This document shows positions 28,043 to 34,174 of a stretch of 38,569 nucleotides of DNA, piece after piece; position 1 is the first letter of the stretch, and every line of letters starts with the position of its first letter. The notes beneath the pieces are model-generated. The model saw nothing but the letters and a program-made list of their open reading frames with translations, was not told where the DNA came from and did not search any database. The stretch lies in the IMG/VR virus record IMGVR_UViG_3300020182_002609, positions 1 to 38,569 of that record. One strand, 5' to 3'. The translations under genes and the position numbers were made by a program. The stretch is from a virus.

Positions 28043-28729
28043 TTACTCCAAGTCGTTTAAATTGTTTATTGCTCGATATAAAACAGGATTCATATTTTTA
28101 ATGAATTCTCCATTATTTAAATAGTAATCTTCGAATCCAGTTGCAAAGTATTCTCTCAAAGAAGTTGCAGCATAAGCGTCTACGAAGAGCCCATTAACTA
28201 GTGGGTCCACTATATCATAGCCGATGTCTTTATGCAAGAAGAAATCTAATCTTTTATCATATTCTGTTTTTTCGAAATCATATAGGTGAGTGTCAAATTG
28301 CATATATCTCAAGAGTCTTTCAAGTTTTTTTCTTTTGCCAAGAAATTCTTGCTCAATCGTTCCATCTTGATAGATGTCTTGACCGTAAGCCTCTTCTAGG
28401 GCGTGAGCAAGCTCATGAATGATGTCATCAGCCATATCTTCGCCGCTGTCTTGTTCATTTGTTACATATATTGCCCCATCCGAATATTTAGCATTGATAT
28501 TTCGATCTTCTAAATCTCGGAAGAACCCAACGTATACAACATCGATTAGATTGATAATAAATGGTGGAATTCTATCATTAATAAAAGAAAAAACCGAATT
28601 AAGATCAATGTTCTCAGGTAAGGGGTCGCTTACGAAAACTTCAATACTAAAAAGGTTATGATATTTAGTATTTTTTGTTCTATACTTATGCGATTCTTCA
28701 ATCAGTTGTTGTATCTTGTTGTTCGTCAT
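28043..28729 (-). CDS. HExxH-type zinc metallopeptidase-like protein
   Basis: The product has 228 residues. The zinc-binding HELAH is at residues 105-109 in ADDIIHELAHALEEAYG, and EYFATGFEDYYL near the C-terminus could supply a third ligand. Before it, SDGAIYVTNEQDSGEDM resembles the strand and edge found in anthrax-lethal-factor-like and phage metallopeptidases. No signal peptide is present, so the target should be cytoplasmic, either host or phage. Its start lies 32 bases inside the upstream gene. Confidence 0.75.
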   Translation of the reverse strand: MTNNKIQQLIEESHKYRTKNTKYHNLFSIEVFVSDPLPENIDLNSVFSFINDRIPPFIINLIDVVYVGFFRDLEDRNINAKYSDGAIYVTNEQDSGEDMADDIIHELAHALEEAYGQDIYQDGTIEQEFLGKRKKLERLLRYMQFDTHLYDFEKTEYDKRLDFFLHKDIGYDIVDPLVNGLFVDAYAATSLREYFATGFEDYYLNNGEFIKNMNPVLYRAINNLNDLE

Positions 28730-29065: not shown

Positions 29066-30376
29066 TTATAAAACCTTCGCTGCTAAAGTAGCGACTTTAG
29101 ATCTCTCTCCCTTAGTGAGAGAAATATGTCCAGCTAAATCAAAATCTTTAAACTTTTCAATAGCATAGCTCAATCCATTAGATGTTGAATCTAAATAAAC
29201 ATTATCGATTTGTTCCACGTCGCCAGTTAAAATTATCTTTGTGTTTTCACCGACGCGGGTGACAATAGTTTTTAATTCGTGCGGACTTAAGTTTTGCACC
29301 TCATCGATAATCACATATGCATTTGAGATAGAACGTCCACGAATATAACTCAAAGCTTCAATTTCAATGGTTCCATCTTCATATAGGTGTTCAATATTCT
29401 TGGCTTCGCCATTCATTAAGAAATCTAAATTATCTTGAATTGGCATTAACCAGGGGCGCATTTTTTCTTCAAGAGTTCCTGGAAGAAAGCCGATATCTTG
29501 AGAACCCATCGCCTGAACTGGTTTCGATACAATGAGTTTTTTATATATTCCTTTTTCCAGCACTTGCTCTAAGCCTGAAGCTAGAGCAAGGAGTGTTTTA
29601 CCTGTGCCTGCTTTTCCTGTGATTGTTACAATAGGAAGGTCTGGATCAGATAACAAATCTAAAGCGAATTTTTGTTCTTTGTTGCGGGGATGGACGCCCC
29701 AAGCTTCATTCTTATAATCGTTAATGTTAACAAGAGGGTTATTATAATTTATAAATTTTGCTAAAGCTGTTTTCTTTTCGTTTTGGCTTGAGACCAGCAT
29801 AATACATTGATTAGGATGAAAGCTGCCTTCTTCTGGGTCTAGTGATACTCTTTCTTTCCCAGCGTAAAACTGATCTATGAATTGATCATCTACTAGGTGT
29901 TTTGTAAAGCCAGAGAATAACTCTTCGTGGGTATTGATGATTTTATTGGTTTTATAATCTTCGCTTGGGAACCCCAAGGAGTCGCATTTAACTCTCATAT
30001 TGATATCTTGGGTTACAAGAATGATCTTTTTTCTTTTATATTTTGATTTTTCTTTTAAAGCAGTTGCAATAATTTGATTATCTGGATCATCATCTTCAAG
30101 CCCTGCTGGCATAAAAATAGGATCATATCCTCTTACTGCTAACTTGCCGCCTTCTGGGATCTGTACTCCATTATGAAGGTTGCCATGAGCACGAAGGTCA
30201 TCGAGGATACGAATGAAGTGCCGTGCGTTTGCCCCGACTCCATCTTGACGTTTTTTATGCTTGTCAATTTCTTCTAAAACTTTTATAGGAATTATAATAT
30301 CGTGCTCTTCGTACTTGAACACGGCGGAGGAATCGGCTAGATGAACATTCGTATCTAGAACATATGTTTTTTTCAT
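29066..30376 (-). CDS. phoH: PIN-PhoH domain RNA helicase/nuclease-like protein
   Basis: The product has 436 residues. An N-terminal PIN nuclease domain (about 1-150) shows YVLDTNVHL, IIPIKVLEEIDKHK, DNQIIATAL and LVTQDINMR, the acidic set of that family. The C-terminal PhoH ATPase has Walker A GKAGTGKT at 254-261, preceded by VTIT, and Walker B VIIDEVQN at about 355-362, with RGRSISNA between. This two-domain form is known from PhoH2 proteins, which unwind and cleave RNA. PhoH is common in marine phages. AAGGA precedes the ATG. It is divergent from the plus-strand lipoprotein gene. Confidence 0.93.
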   Translation of the reverse strand: MKKTYVLDTNVHLADSSAVFKYEEHDIIIPIKVLEEIDKHKKRQDGVGANARHFIRILDDLRAHGNLHNGVQIPEGGKLAVRGYDPIFMPAGLEDDDPDNQIIATALKEKSKYKRKKIILVTQDINMRVKCDSLGFPSEDYKTNKIINTHEELFSGFTKHLVDDQFIDQFYAGKERVSLDPEEGSFHPNQCIMLVSSQNEKKTALAKFINYNNPLVNINDYKNEAWGVHPRNKEQKFALDLLSDPDLPIVTITGKAGTGKTLLALASGLEQVLEKGIYKKLIVSKPVQAMGSQDIGFLPGTLEEKMRPWLMPIQDNLDFLMNGEAKNIEHLYEDGTIEIEALSYIRGRSISNAYVIIDEVQNLSPHELKTIVTRVGENTKIILTGDVEQIDNVYLDSTSNGLSYAIEKFKDFDLAGHISLTKGERSKVATLAAKVL

Positions 30377-30437
30377 TAAGGGTCCTTAAAAAATTAAATG
30401 AGCTAAAAAGTTATTCTTAATATATATTTACTTTAAG

Positions 30438-31175
30438 ATGAGAACTACGTTAATCATATTTTGTCTCTCTATAGTATTTAGCTCCTGTACCAAGATTAAG
30501 GAGAAGAAATTTATAGATGCAAGAAGTTCCTTTGTCCGAGTTGTTATCGAAGAACAAGTAAAAATATGTGACGACGGAAGTTGTTTACAAAAAACTTTTA
30601 ACGCATCGAGTAGTGGCGCTGTTATCGAATTTGAAGGTGAAAAAGTAGTCCTTACGGCTGCTCATTCTTGTACTCCAAACGACTCTTCAGAGCTAAAGAA
30701 ACTTGTAAATGGAGAAATTGAAGTCGAAGTTAAATTATATGGGTATGATATACATAATATGAAACATGTCTTAAAAATAAAAAAACTAGATAAGGGAGAA
30801 GACATTTGCATTTTAGAGGCTGACACACTGTGGCAGGACCCAGTTCCTATCGCTGACTCGATTCCAGAGTACGATGAACAAGTCTATAATTTTGCTGCTC
30901 CTCAAGGCATCTTTGCAAACCATATGGTCCCATTGTTAACTGGATATTATGTAGGTGAAAAAAATGGTATGGCAGCGTATACTATTCCGGCGGCGGCTGG
31001 ATCATCAGGGTCAATAATCGTAAATAAAAGAGGAGAGTTAGTTGGGATGATTCATTCAGTACATGTCGAATTCAATCACTTCACTCTCTCCCCCACACTA
31101 GGAGCCTTTAAATATTTTTTGGATTTGGATGATAAGTCCGATCAGGGCGCAGATCCACCAAATATGTTCCTATGA
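30438..31175 (+). CDS. Trypsin-like serine protease, predicted lipoprotein (copy 1)
   Basis: The product has 245 residues. The start MRTTLIIFCLSIVFSSC is a lipoprotein signal peptide with the acceptor Cys17. The chymotrypsin-fold triad is visible: His76 in VVLTAAHSC, Asp122 in KGEDICILEAD, and Ser190 in AAAGSSGSIIVNKRGELVG. Cys44-Cys49 and Cys78/Cys124 could form disulfides in an exported environment. It is one of only two genes on the plus strand. A related gene lies at 31704. Likely exported to the host envelope. No clear promoter was found in its 60-base upstream gap. Confidence 0.88.
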   Translation: MRTTLIIFCLSIVFSSCTKIKEKKFIDARSSFVRVVIEEQVKICDDGSCLQKTFNASSSGAVIEFEGEKVVLTAAHSCTPNDSSELKKLVNGEIEVEVKLYGYDIHNMKHVLKIKKLDKGEDICILEADTLWQDPVPIADSIPEYDEQVYNFAAPQGIFANHMVPLLTGYYVGEKNGMAAYTIPAAAGSSGSIIVNKRGELVGMIHSVHVEFNHFTLSPTLGAFKYFLDLDDKSDQGADPPNMFL

Positions 31176-31197
31176 TTACAGGTTCCAAGTTTGACAC

Positions 31198-31644
31198 CTA
31201 GTGTTCATTGTTGGCTTCAGCGCTTCCTATAGCTATTTCTAAAATTTCAGAAGCTGTTGGGCGGAAGTTTTTCCCTAAGAAGAATAACATTCCAATACCA
31301 AGTTCTTTACATACATCTACTTCTGGTGTGTTATCCACGGTGCGTTGTCCACCATTACCAAAGAAATCAGGATTAAGGTGTCTCAATGTAGCACACACGG
31401 TCCCGTCATTATCTTTCGATTTTACAACGTTTATAACCCCAGGGATCTCTAATAAGATGCTTTTTCTTTTTTTAAAAGGAAGAAAATTCTTACCATCCCA
31501 CCTTCTTGTGGCGCACCATTCGTCACTATTAAGAATTATAATAACGTCTCCTAATTCAGCAGCTTCTTGGATCATTGCCACCTGACCTCTGGTCGGTGGG
31601 TCAAAGCCCCCACTTAAAGCAATTATTTTCTTGTTAGAATCCAT
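31198..31644 (-). CDS. Cytidylyltransferase-fold nucleotidyltransferase with degenerate HxGH motif
   Basis: The product has 148 residues and has the fold of TagD/RfaE-C-terminal-type nucleotidyltransferases: IIALSGGFDPPTRGQVAMIQEA at the start, VIIILNSDEWCATRR, then the KKRKSILLEIPGV helix, VCATLRHLNPDFFGNGG and a C-terminal FFLGKNFRPTASEIL. The catalytic HxGH is changed to Thr18-Arg-Gly-Gln21, while the rest looks well conserved, including the terminal S/T-SxIL helix. Either chemistry differs or it is a binding protein. It has TAGGAG before the ATG and sits between two opposing protease genes. Confidence 0.8.
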   Translation of the reverse strand: MDSNKKIIALSGGFDPPTRGQVAMIQEAAELGDVIIILNSDEWCATRRWDGKNFLPFKKRKSILLEIPGVINVVKSKDNDGTVCATLRHLNPDFFGNGGQRTVDNTPEVDVCKELGIGMLFFLGKNFRPTASEILEIAIGSAEANNEH

Positions 31645-31703
31645 TTTAGTATATAACTCCTAGTTACATATAGCTTGCTATTTGCAAAAGGATATCATAA
31701 GCC

Positions 31704-32597
31704 ATGTTAAAGTTTAAAATGTATTTACTGTCCCTACTCTCTCTTTTAGTGCTAGTATCTTGTAGCTCTTGCAGTCATATCCCTATTAAATCACAATACA
31801 AGTTAGGTGAATTAATCAACATTGACTCAATGGTGAAAGTTGAATCACTTTATGTTATCGAGCACTGTACAGGAGATATCTGTAATACATTTAAAATGTC
31901 CTCTTCCTCTTCTGGTTCTGCTATCGCTGATTCAGTTGGTGGGAAATACGTTTTAACAACTGGGCATACTTGCAATCCGGCGATGGGTGTTCCTTTCGGA
32001 CTTAAAAATGTAAAAGTTACACAACATACATTCCTTGTTGATTCTGAAGGCAATAGGCATGCTACAGTTACTGTAGACTTTAACGAAACACAAGATGTTT
32101 GCATTCTTCACTCCAAATCATTAAGGATTCCCAACCTTCCTATCAATTGGGATGATGCACCCGATGTTGGCGATAAGGTGTACAACTTTGCTGCTTCTTT
32201 GGGAGTATTCGGTGAAAAGACTATTCCAGTATTGGAAGGTCGATATTCTGGTAAATACTGGGGTATGGCTTTGTATACGATTCCCACCATCGGAGGAAGT
32301 TCAGGTTCACCAATTTTCAACGTGCAAGGCGAACTTATTGGTATGATTCACTCTGTACACAGTAGGTATCATCATCTGTCTTTTGGTCCGCATCATAAAG
32401 ACTTGATGGCTTATATCAAGGAATACACACCACATAATGTACCCAGAGGTATTAGAACCGAGTGGACAGATATTCCAGAAAAGAAATCAAAAAAGATTTA
32501 CTTAGATGATGTAAGTCTCAAAAAGTATCTTGATACTATCGATGGAAATAACTGTGATTGTGTTGGTCGTGAATGTTTGACTAAATGTATTAATTAA
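31704..32597 (+). CDS. Trypsin-like serine protease, predicted lipoprotein (copy 2)
   Basis: The product has 297 residues. The signal MLKFKMYLLSLLSLLVLVSC ends in a lipobox with Cys20. The triad is His88 in YVLTTGHTC, Asp131 in TQDVCILHSK, and Ser200 in TIGGSSGSPIFNVQGELIG. It shares YNFAA, the YTIP segment before the serine and GMIHSVH with copy 1, so the two are paralogues. A C-terminal extension of about 70 residues, ending with CDCVGRECLTKC (four cysteines), is absent from copy 1. Its stop overlaps the end of the converging clpP gene by four bases. Confidence 0.88.
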   Translation: MLKFKMYLLSLLSLLVLVSCSSCSHIPIKSQYKLGELINIDSMVKVESLYVIEHCTGDICNTFKMSSSSSGSAIADSVGGKYVLTTGHTCNPAMGVPFGLKNVKVTQHTFLVDSEGNRHATVTVDFNETQDVCILHSKSLRIPNLPINWDDAPDVGDKVYNFAASLGVFGEKTIPVLEGRYSGKYWGMALYTIPTIGGSSGSPIFNVQGELIGMIHSVHSRYHHLSFGPHHKDLMAYIKEYTPHNVPRGIRTEWTDIPEKKSKKIYLDDVSLKKYLDTIDGNNCDCVGRECLTKCIN

Positions 32598-33226
32598 ACG
32601 ATAATCTCGTCGATTAAACCATACTTCAAACAGGTCTTTGCGGTCCACCACAGGTCATGCTTGAGCATTTTTGCAAGCTCTTTTGCAGGTATCTTTGTGT
32701 GTTGGATATAAATATCTCGGATGGTTTTCATCAAGAGATCGTTATTAGCCATATCGTCTTTAAGCTCTTCATACTTACCCCAGCTTCCAGCAGAGAGTTG
32801 ATGAATAAGCATAAAAGAGTGTTCGTGCATCATTCGATGTTCTCCTACCACGCTCATTATTGTAGCAGCAGAGGCGGCACAACCATCGATCACAGTGGTC
32901 ACAGGCACTTCAGACGTCTTAATATAATCTACAGCAGAAAAGCCAGCGAAAACGCTTCCACCATATGAATTGATGTGGAGATGGATATCTCCAATAGCAG
33001 TTGTTTGGAGAGCGCAGGCTTTGTTCGTCATATTGATTTCTAAATTCTTAATAGACTTATTCAAAGCAAGGATCTTGGGACGAGTAACTTCCGAATAGAA
33101 ATAAATTCTATTGTTAGCCGATGTTACTTGATCTTTTTCAGAACTGCTACCGGCTTCGTCTCCTCCACGGGTAGCGTTTGGTTGTTCATCCGAATCCACT
33201 TCGGAAATCCATTTAGTTGAAATCAT
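32594..33226 (-). CDS. clpP: ClpP-like serine protease, phage type
   Basis: The product has 210 residues. The catalytic triad is Ser119 in DGCAASAATIM, His142 in FMLIHQLSAG and probably Asp191 in KHDLWWTA. The oxyanion-loop strand HLHINSYGGSVFAG and the fold-typical SVVGEHRMMHEHS are present. The N-terminal 35 residues are a polar linker (SDEQPNATRGGDEAGSSSE), not the usual axial loop sequence, so docking to a Clp ATPase may differ. Phage ClpP homologues are common in T4-like marine viruses, and some act in head maturation. Start shown has weak ribosome-site similarity (AAGGAT). Confidence 0.9.
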   Translation of the reverse strand: MISTKWISEVDSDEQPNATRGGDEAGSSSEKDQVTSANNRIYFYSEVTRPKILALNKSIKNLEINMTNKACALQTTAIGDIHLHINSYGGSVFAGFSAVDYIKTSEVPVTTVIDGCAASAATIMSVVGEHRMMHEHSFMLIHQLSAGSWGKYEELKDDMANNDLLMKTIRDIYIQHTKIPAKELAKMLKHDLWWTAKTCLKYGLIDEIIV

Positions 33227-33412: not shown

Positions 33413-34174
33413 TTATATTTTTTTAGCTTGTAGAAAAAGAATTTTTTTCCAAGTTTCTTTCCAACTTTCAACCCTTACAACGTTATTCTCATATTGTGAA
33501 TTTTCAATCGCTGATGCCAGGGCAAAATCATTTCCGCCAAACTCTGTTCTATCACCATAAAAATTAATTACAGTGTTTTGTGAGATCATAGCATTGTTTT
33601 CAAGATATGTTAAGACCTGTGATTTATCTTTTCCAGGATTAAAGATGTCGATGCTTATCTCGCCGCCGACCACAGCAGTGACCTTATTTTTATATTTGTT
33701 ATTTAACACTGACGCAAACAAAGTTCGTTCGTTAACCTCTTTGTCAAAAGAAGAGTACTCCTCGCGAGCCTCTTGATCTGCATTGCGTCCGACAACAGAA
33801 AAATTGATCATTCCGACTCTATCTTCGATATGGTTGCCAAATCTTTTAGGGTACTTGGAAGAAAGCACTTTGTCCTTTAAATCTTCACGGAGCCCAGGAA
33901 CTTCGATAAAATCATTTTGATATATCTTCTTTCCATATTGATGGAAACAATTTCCCATGCAGGTGAACACACCGTGAACAGTTTTCAAAATGCTTTCAGG
34001 CAATTGAGATTCGATTTTCTCTAAATCACTTCCAGAAGCAAGGTAAACTTGGCTTTTTAAAGCAAATTCTGTAAAGAATGAAGCAAAATTTGTATTTATA
34101 GTTTGTCTAGGAGGGGTAAGGGTCCCGTCAACATCAAAAATATAAATTTCTTTTGTTTTATCGATTGAATTCAT
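33413..34174 (-). CDS. Eukaryote-type (HAD) phosphomannomutase-like enzyme
   Basis: The product has 253 residues, the length of PMM2/Sec53 enzymes. It begins IYIFDVDGTLTPPRQTI, the PMM form of HAD motif I with nucleophile Asp14 and acid Asp16. RVGMINFSVVGRN at about 119-131 is the sugar-phosphate binding signature, VVGGEISIDIFNPGKDKSQ at 168-186 and INFYGDRTEFGGNDFALA at 203-220 are the metal loop. These motifs are characteristic of alpha-PMM from eukaryotes, distinct from bacterial ManB. It would make mannose-1-phosphate, which with a host guanylyltransferase gives the Gmd substrate. It is 31 kb from gmd. Confidence 0.85.
   Translation of the reverse strand: MNSIDKTKEIYIFDVDGTLTPPRQTINTNFASFFTEFALKSQVYLASGSDLEKIESQLPESILKTVHGVFTCMGNCFHQYGKKIYQNDFIEVPGLREDLKDKVLSSKYPKRFGNHIEDRVGMINFSVVGRNADQEAREEYSSFDKEVNERTLFASVLNNKYKNKVTAVVGGEISIDIFNPGKDKSQVLTYLENNAMISQNTVINFYGDRTEFGGNDFALASAIENSQYENNVVRVESWKETWKKILFLQAKKI

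Follow-up and report, generated by a model that had tools for sequence, protein, structure and literature searches.

Divergently encoded trypsin-like lipoproteins of uncultured T4-type phages: candidate late proteases of the host envelope

Why would a phage that keeps its genes on one strand place two protease genes on the other, and what would these proteases do for it? The question is raised by a 38,569-bp stretch of DNA, a complete IMG/VR virus record referred to here as the window, in which two protease genes (copy 1 and copy 2) are the sole plus-strand genes of at least 90 aa, the 48 others all being on the minus strand. An earlier note, made from the letters of the sequence, had described them as paralogous secreted serine proteases with lipoboxes and intact His-Asp-Ser triads and as the only genes on their strand, and had proposed that they were morons. 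The description is confirmed, as far as the strand is concerned for genes of at least 90 aa. Both open reading frames occupy the positions given in Table 1, their products share 39% identity over 160 residues, and they score 42.9 and 44.1 bits against the Pfam Trypsin_2 profile (cut-off 27.6). The extra cysteine-rich tail which had been pointed out on copy 2 is also real: its four cysteines are invariant in 6/6 copy-2 orthologues, and sequence comparison did not find the tail in single-copy relatives. A chance open reading frame would not be expected to show such conservation together with the purifying selection described below.

Table 1. Features of the protease locus in the window (strand: +, plus; -, minus;., intergenic)
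Feature	Position	Strand	Remarks
PIN-PhoH gene, syntenic anchor of the locus	29066..30376	-	head-to-head with copy 1
phoH/copy 1 divergent intergenic region, 61 bp	30377..30437	.	without CTA[TGA]TTA
Copy 1, exported trypsin-like lipoprotein (predicted)	30438..31175	+	245 aa; AlphaFold2 model pLDDT 88.9
Copy 1 lipobox Cys17 codon	30486-30488	+	lipobox FSSC
Copy 1 triad codons	His76 30663-30665, Asp122 30801-30803, Ser190 31005-31007	+	
Copy 1 Cys pairs	C44/C49 and C78/C124		
Cytidylyltransferase-like gene (GGFDPPTRGQ motif)	31198..31644	-	between the proteases; conserved in the two-copy subclade
CTAGTTA upstream of copy 2, a candidate late promoter of the phage	31660..31666	+	44 nt 5′ of ATG
Copy 2, exported trypsin-like lipoprotein (predicted)	31704..32597	+	297 aa; AlphaFold2 model pLDDT 84.3
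Copy 2 lipobox Cys20 codon	31761-31763	+	lipobox LVSC
Copy 2 triad codons	His88 31965-31967, Asp131 32094-32096, Ser200 32301-32303	+	
Copy 2 Cys pairs	C55/C60 and C90/C133		
Copy 2 lineage-conserved strand GMIHSVH	residues 213-219		
Copy 2 C-terminal Cys-rich tail (C284, C286, C291, C295)	32553..32588	+	two-copy subclade only
ClpP-like gene, other boundary of the locus	32594..33226	-	convergent overlap with the last bases of copy 2

The two genes had been called paired, a term which holds for their paralogy but not for their position. They are not adjacent because the minus-strand cytidylyltransferase-like gene separates them, and each protease gene is therefore head-to-head with a minus-strand gene (59 bp separate copy 2 from the cytidylyltransferase-like gene). 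In some relatives a further small minus-strand gene (cluster c36), missing from the window, separates copy 1 from the cytidylyltransferase gene (L005:9174-9512, L007:508-804 and L008:5044-5388). Beyond the locus, positions 33413-34174 encode a HAD protein which matches the eukaryotic-type phosphomannomutase family PF03332 and adjoins the locus in many relatives, while positions 28043-28729 encode a conserved protein near phoH (cluster c3, 35 loci) whose matches to metallopeptidase families are all sub-threshold. Positions 2122-28037 form a long minus-strand run in which glycosyltransferases occur with methyltransferases and a GDP-mannose dehydratase/sugar epimerase, making it a large region of the phage for glycan modification.

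Pattern-based scans of viral contigs, seeded with the protease, provided a first set of 45 loci and 48 proteins of at least 180 aa. The lipobox Cys, four further Cys, the His and the Asp are present in all 48, and the nucleophile Ser in 47, the exception being cut off by a contig end. Because these scans had been seeded with the protease itself, a second search was seeded with phoH alone and the best 80 phoH loci were taken; one has no upstream sequence, leaving 79 informative loci. A family member lies near phoH in 71 of these 79 phoH-selected loci, a count which, like the others for this entirely metagenomic family, includes related sequences rather than independent trials. In every one of these 71 loci the family members, 73 in all, face the opposite way to phoH. 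Pairwise core identity among the 73 proteins, of which 67 are distinct, has a median of 34%, and the His, Asp, Ser and lipobox Cys are each found in 73/73. The common single-copy gene order is phoH, protease, in some cases the HAD gene, and clpP; the window's subclade has a second protease and the cytidylyltransferase gene as additions between phoH and clpP. The gene keeps its place even between phages whose proteases share as little as about 20% identity. Omega is approximately 0.03-0.12 where synonymous sites are unsaturated (elsewhere they are saturated), indicating strong purifying selection.

Since 71 of the 79 phoH loci carry a member, at a median identity of about 34%, the sequences identify the protease gene as long established and nearly core in uncultured T4-type phages. 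Its orientation, fixed across divergent phoH loci, has by the same comparison been maintained in the lineage since long ago and is not the mark of a recent acquisition; low omega values together with saturation at synonymous sites fit this. This bears directly on the proposal of a moron, that is, a self-expressed accessory gene of recent bacterial origin that benefits the host. The proteases do stand alone on their strand, each with its own upstream region, as a moron might; but position and strand are fixed across the lineage, the G+C content of the two genes (0.381 and 0.376) is that of their neighbours (mean of the other genes 0.376, window 0.373), a single pattern scan of GTDB genomes found no bacterial relative and, to our knowledge, T4-type phages are not known as lysogens. 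We therefore consider a true moron highly improbable, and the reversed orientation does not signal independent acquisition of the locus, as had been thought; a separate acquisition might apply to copy 1 only. What remains of that proposal is expression apart from the surrounding genes: both copies are divergent and copy 2 has a motif of its own upstream, which copy 1 does not, so that each may form its own transcription unit.

As to homologues in other phages and in prophages, many were found in uncultured viral contigs, but none among 50,697 deposited phages (tblastn with three members as queries, at the sensitivity used), and none was found encoded in GTDB bacterial genomes in the pattern scan. 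When the outlying members L044-L046 were used as queries, viral contigs yielded the same three and nothing else. Literature searches, largely outside subscription journals, provided nothing on point concerning a phage lipoprotein protease.

How the window came to have two copies was addressed with a tree in which copy 2 groups with the single-copy relatives L009-L018 and the copy 1 group falls outside (support 99/97, with long-branch warnings). Among related phages copy 1 is 59-66% identical compared to 77-84% for copy 2, and the DNA upstream of copy 1 differs from that of copy 2; the four copy-1 genes have in common a ATATTTAC-like stretch immediately 5′ of the ATG. From these sequences copy 2 looks like the resident gene of the lineage and copy 1 like a faster-evolving out-paralogue. 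We considered that copy 1 might be a recent tandem copy of copy 2; the tree places it outside the group formed by copy 2 and the single-copy genes but, in view of the long-branch warnings, copy 1 may still have arisen in this way. An early duplication and a transfer from another phage of the lineage would both fit.

Both proteins are active-looking PA-clan serine proteases of the trypsin fold, judging from sequence and models. The AlphaFold2 models (pLDDT in Table 1) support a double beta-barrel, and both copies share with PF13365 Trypsin_2 and the PA clan the fold, the His-Asp-Ser order and a GxSGS nucleophile motif; both would be expected to be proteolytic. They differ from PF13365 by conserved cysteine pairs, one of which would join the residues two past the His and the Asp, by the lipobox found in all phage members examined and, in the window's lineage, by the GMIHSVH strand. 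The best Foldseek and profile matches are members of the HtrA family (DegS, DegQ, DegP, HtrA1), which are also periplasmic trypsin-fold enzymes; for copy 2, Foldseek returned the protease domains of DegS, DegQ and HtrA1 with E values of about 1e-11 to 2e-11. The phage proteases are, however, 15-19% identical to these and would be held by a lipid anchor, where HtrA proteins have a membrane helix or are soluble. With Pfam the protease domain alone was recognised in each copy, and no PDZ domain, the hallmark of HtrA/DegP proteins. Around the nucleophile, the best single-sequence PDB matches are V8-type glutamyl endopeptidases, with marginal E values (0.003 and worse); in that alignment the S1 histidine is one position out of register, and a specificity for Glu is therefore not established. 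The PHROG family phrog_9683, annotated no further than "protease", is matched by 36/43 family members at E≤0.001, the window proteins matching it weakly (0.0038 and 1.8e-6).

The GMIHSVH strand lies C-terminal to the nucleophile and, by homology, would line the substrate cleft. It is kept in 44 of the 47 members of the first set with data, and is relaxed to G-hydrophobic-hydrophobic-H-S in the wider phoH-selected set. Its conservation points to a selective enzyme and, since the strand would face the substrate, suggests a specific cut rather than general destruction of the envelope.

That the proteins would be secreted and lipid-anchored in the host envelope, as had been supposed, agrees well with the wider family. 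The lipobox features comprise a charged n-region, a hydrophobic h-region and a Cys invariant in 48/48 and 73/73 proteins. Position -1 is S, T, G or A in 73/73, and position +2 is A, G, S, T, V, N, R, I or F but never Asp among the 73 proteins. Asp at +2 is the Lol-avoidance signal, a rule from E. coli; lipidation with sorting to the outer membrane is the predicted fate of these proteases. The cysteines point the same way. In copy-2 numbering, C55/C60 are lost jointly in 2/2 exceptions among the 73 proteins and C90/C133 in 4/4 (two of the four look identical); loss of a single Cys from either pair was not found among the 73. Loss exclusively in pairs implies disulphides and a periplasmic protein; disulphides and lipobox would each indicate an exported domain. 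C90 lies two residues past the catalytic His and C133 two past the catalytic Asp, and a C90-C133 disulphide would staple together the two segments of the charge relay.

The timing of expression was approached through sequences upstream of genes. CTATTTA is the most enriched 7-mer in this position in two relatives of about 186 kb, and CTA[TGA]TTA occurs upstream of 26/199, 30/183 and 26/220 genes in three relatives, compared to 4, 5 and 11 for its reverse complement. Genes preceded by this motif include those for the tail sheath, tail tube, a virion structural protein and the head-tail adaptor and, in a 68-kb contig of the two-copy subclade, a baseplate-wedge-like gene (named by its N-terminal sequence only). 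The motif is found in the sense direction upstream of 39/48 proteases, including copy 2, and was not found upstream of copy-1 genes; in the wider phoH-selected set it precedes 31/66. Late expression is therefore probable for most single-copy members and for copy 2, which share this motif with genes of the tail sheath, tail tube and baseplate. The window alone shows no sense bias of the motif (4 vs 3); with this and the 31/66 of the wider set, late timing is proposed at the level of the lineage. A weak match to a gp55-like late sigma factor (587-1273) is consistent with a late motif. The T4 TATAAATA was also tried as a late promoter and was rejected, with few copies upstream of genes (11/78). 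CTA[TGA]TTA thus probably represents a lineage-specific late promoter element, unlike T4 TATAAATA (L082-L101 and L198-L207; relatives G003, G007 and G005); there it also precedes phoH.

A gp23-type major capsid gene is present in 11/14 related contigs, including all those of at least 106 kb (106-237 kb); the window, a fragment, has no gp23. The nearest deposited matches to the gp23 of one relative are a 484-kb uncultured phage, Flavobacterium phage immuto and Microcystis phage Mel-JY01, with Rhodothermus phage RM378 further down the same list. Unlike the uncultured relatives, RM378, immuto and Mel-JY01 were without the protease in searches with the family profile and Trypsin_2, which did not find it in S-SSM7 either, among the cultured phages of nearest capsid that were checked. 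By this capsid comparison the lineage is placed on the Far-T4 side of the T4 superfamily, a group treated in PMC4360716 and PMC7198788. A conserved phoH is reported for that group, as at the window locus, and marine Far-T4 phages have been linked to Bacteroidetes/Flavobacteriales (PMC4360716, PMC7198788 and PMC13037479). Term searches of these three papers returned no mention of the protease. In the lineage studied here, however, upstream regions of genes are enriched in Shine-Dalgarno-like AGGAG words, which would be unusual for phages of Flavobacteriia. A weak trypsin-like match occurs in a 595-kb uncultured phage (LR756511, L108:1375-2136); it is exported with an ordinary signal peptide rather than a lipobox, and its gene is also alone on the strand opposite its neighbours.

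Several relatives have small exported proteins encoded between phoH and the protease. They include proteins of about 150 aa on the protease strand (L149, L150, L151, L154 and L155), lipoproteins of 76-78 aa on the phoH strand (L137-L139, L157, L160 and L162) and those of L172 and L174. Partners, inhibitors or substrates of the protease are possible roles for them. In relative G003 a second lipoprotein gene with the late motif (L089:8354-8797) encodes a thioredoxin domain (phrog_22), possibly a phage-encoded periplasmic disulphide enzyme.

The reading we prefer, with a probability of roughly 0.4, is that of a late, membrane-anchored periplasmic protease which targets proteins of the host envelope as infection ends and aids virion release. 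It starts from what the sequences provide: the fold call, triad, lipobox, covariation of cysteines, synteny, orientation and purifying selection. The proteases would be made late, together with the virion genes, exported, lipidated at the N-terminal Cys and stabilised by two disulphides, and the catalytic domain would for these reasons act in the periplasm, tethered in a diderm host to the inner face of the outer membrane. Controlled late proteolysis of host envelope proteins could then assist the rupture of the envelope and the release of virions. This release role is the least certain element: in the neighbourhoods read the protease gene is not beside recognised lysis genes, and the lack of CTA[TGA]TTA before copy 1 also counts against it. 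A narrower version, in which the protease is a late, outer-membrane-anchored and near-universal release factor of this uncultured T4-like lineage that cuts envelope-anchoring proteins, so weakening the envelope, and aids or replaces spanins, seems to us doubtful. The o-spanins (Rz1), T5 Llp and phi80 Cor are likewise phage lipoproteins of the host envelope (for spanins, PMC6139136); these are small and non-enzymatic, in contrast to the phage proteases of 230-300 aa.

The same envelope location would suit superinfection exclusion or receptor destruction, in which outer-membrane receptors or incoming tail proteins are cut, shielding the cell or freeing progeny from debris. Colicin-like toxins and the proteins of competing phages, proposed earlier as targets, would be further candidates. 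T5 Llp and phi80 Cor are precedents, being phage lipoproteins which block receptors, and a late-expressed form of this activity would also fit the promoter motif. An early shield, however, should be expressed early, whereas the motif marks structural genes, and a late-type promoter appears to fit release better. Lol-type sorting would moreover leave the domain at the inner leaflet, far from surface loops, and an arms race over receptors predicts a patchy trait where the protease is nearly universal; exclusion is on these grounds somewhat unlikely. The conserved GMIHSVH strand, with its hint of narrow specificity, would suit an enzyme which processes or controls the quality of the phage's own exported proteins rather than attacking the host, and candidate substrates are at hand in the small exported protein or lipoprotein genes next to phoH in several sublineages (cluster c26) and in the late thioredoxin-type lipoprotein of one relative. 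Such partners occur in some members only, however, and the window has none; we regard this explanation as unlikely. Control of envelope stress or defence, where a DegS/HtrA-like cleavage of a periplasmic regulator or defence protein would keep the envelope working until lysis, draws on the nearest solved folds, the protease domains of DegS, DegQ and HtrA1; it is distinctly unlikely for proteins that have about 15-19% identity to these and do not carry the PDZ domain by which the HtrA family is defined.

With its catalytic residues, anchor and disulphides sufficiently defined, the proposed late, envelope-anchored protease is open to expression tests, and the conserved late motif provides a prediction of its timing. 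What is known of how phages take over and lyse the Gram-negative envelope comes chiefly from holins, endolysins and spanins. A near-core protease anchored in the envelope would add a proteolytic envelope step outside this textbook picture drawn from cultured model phages.
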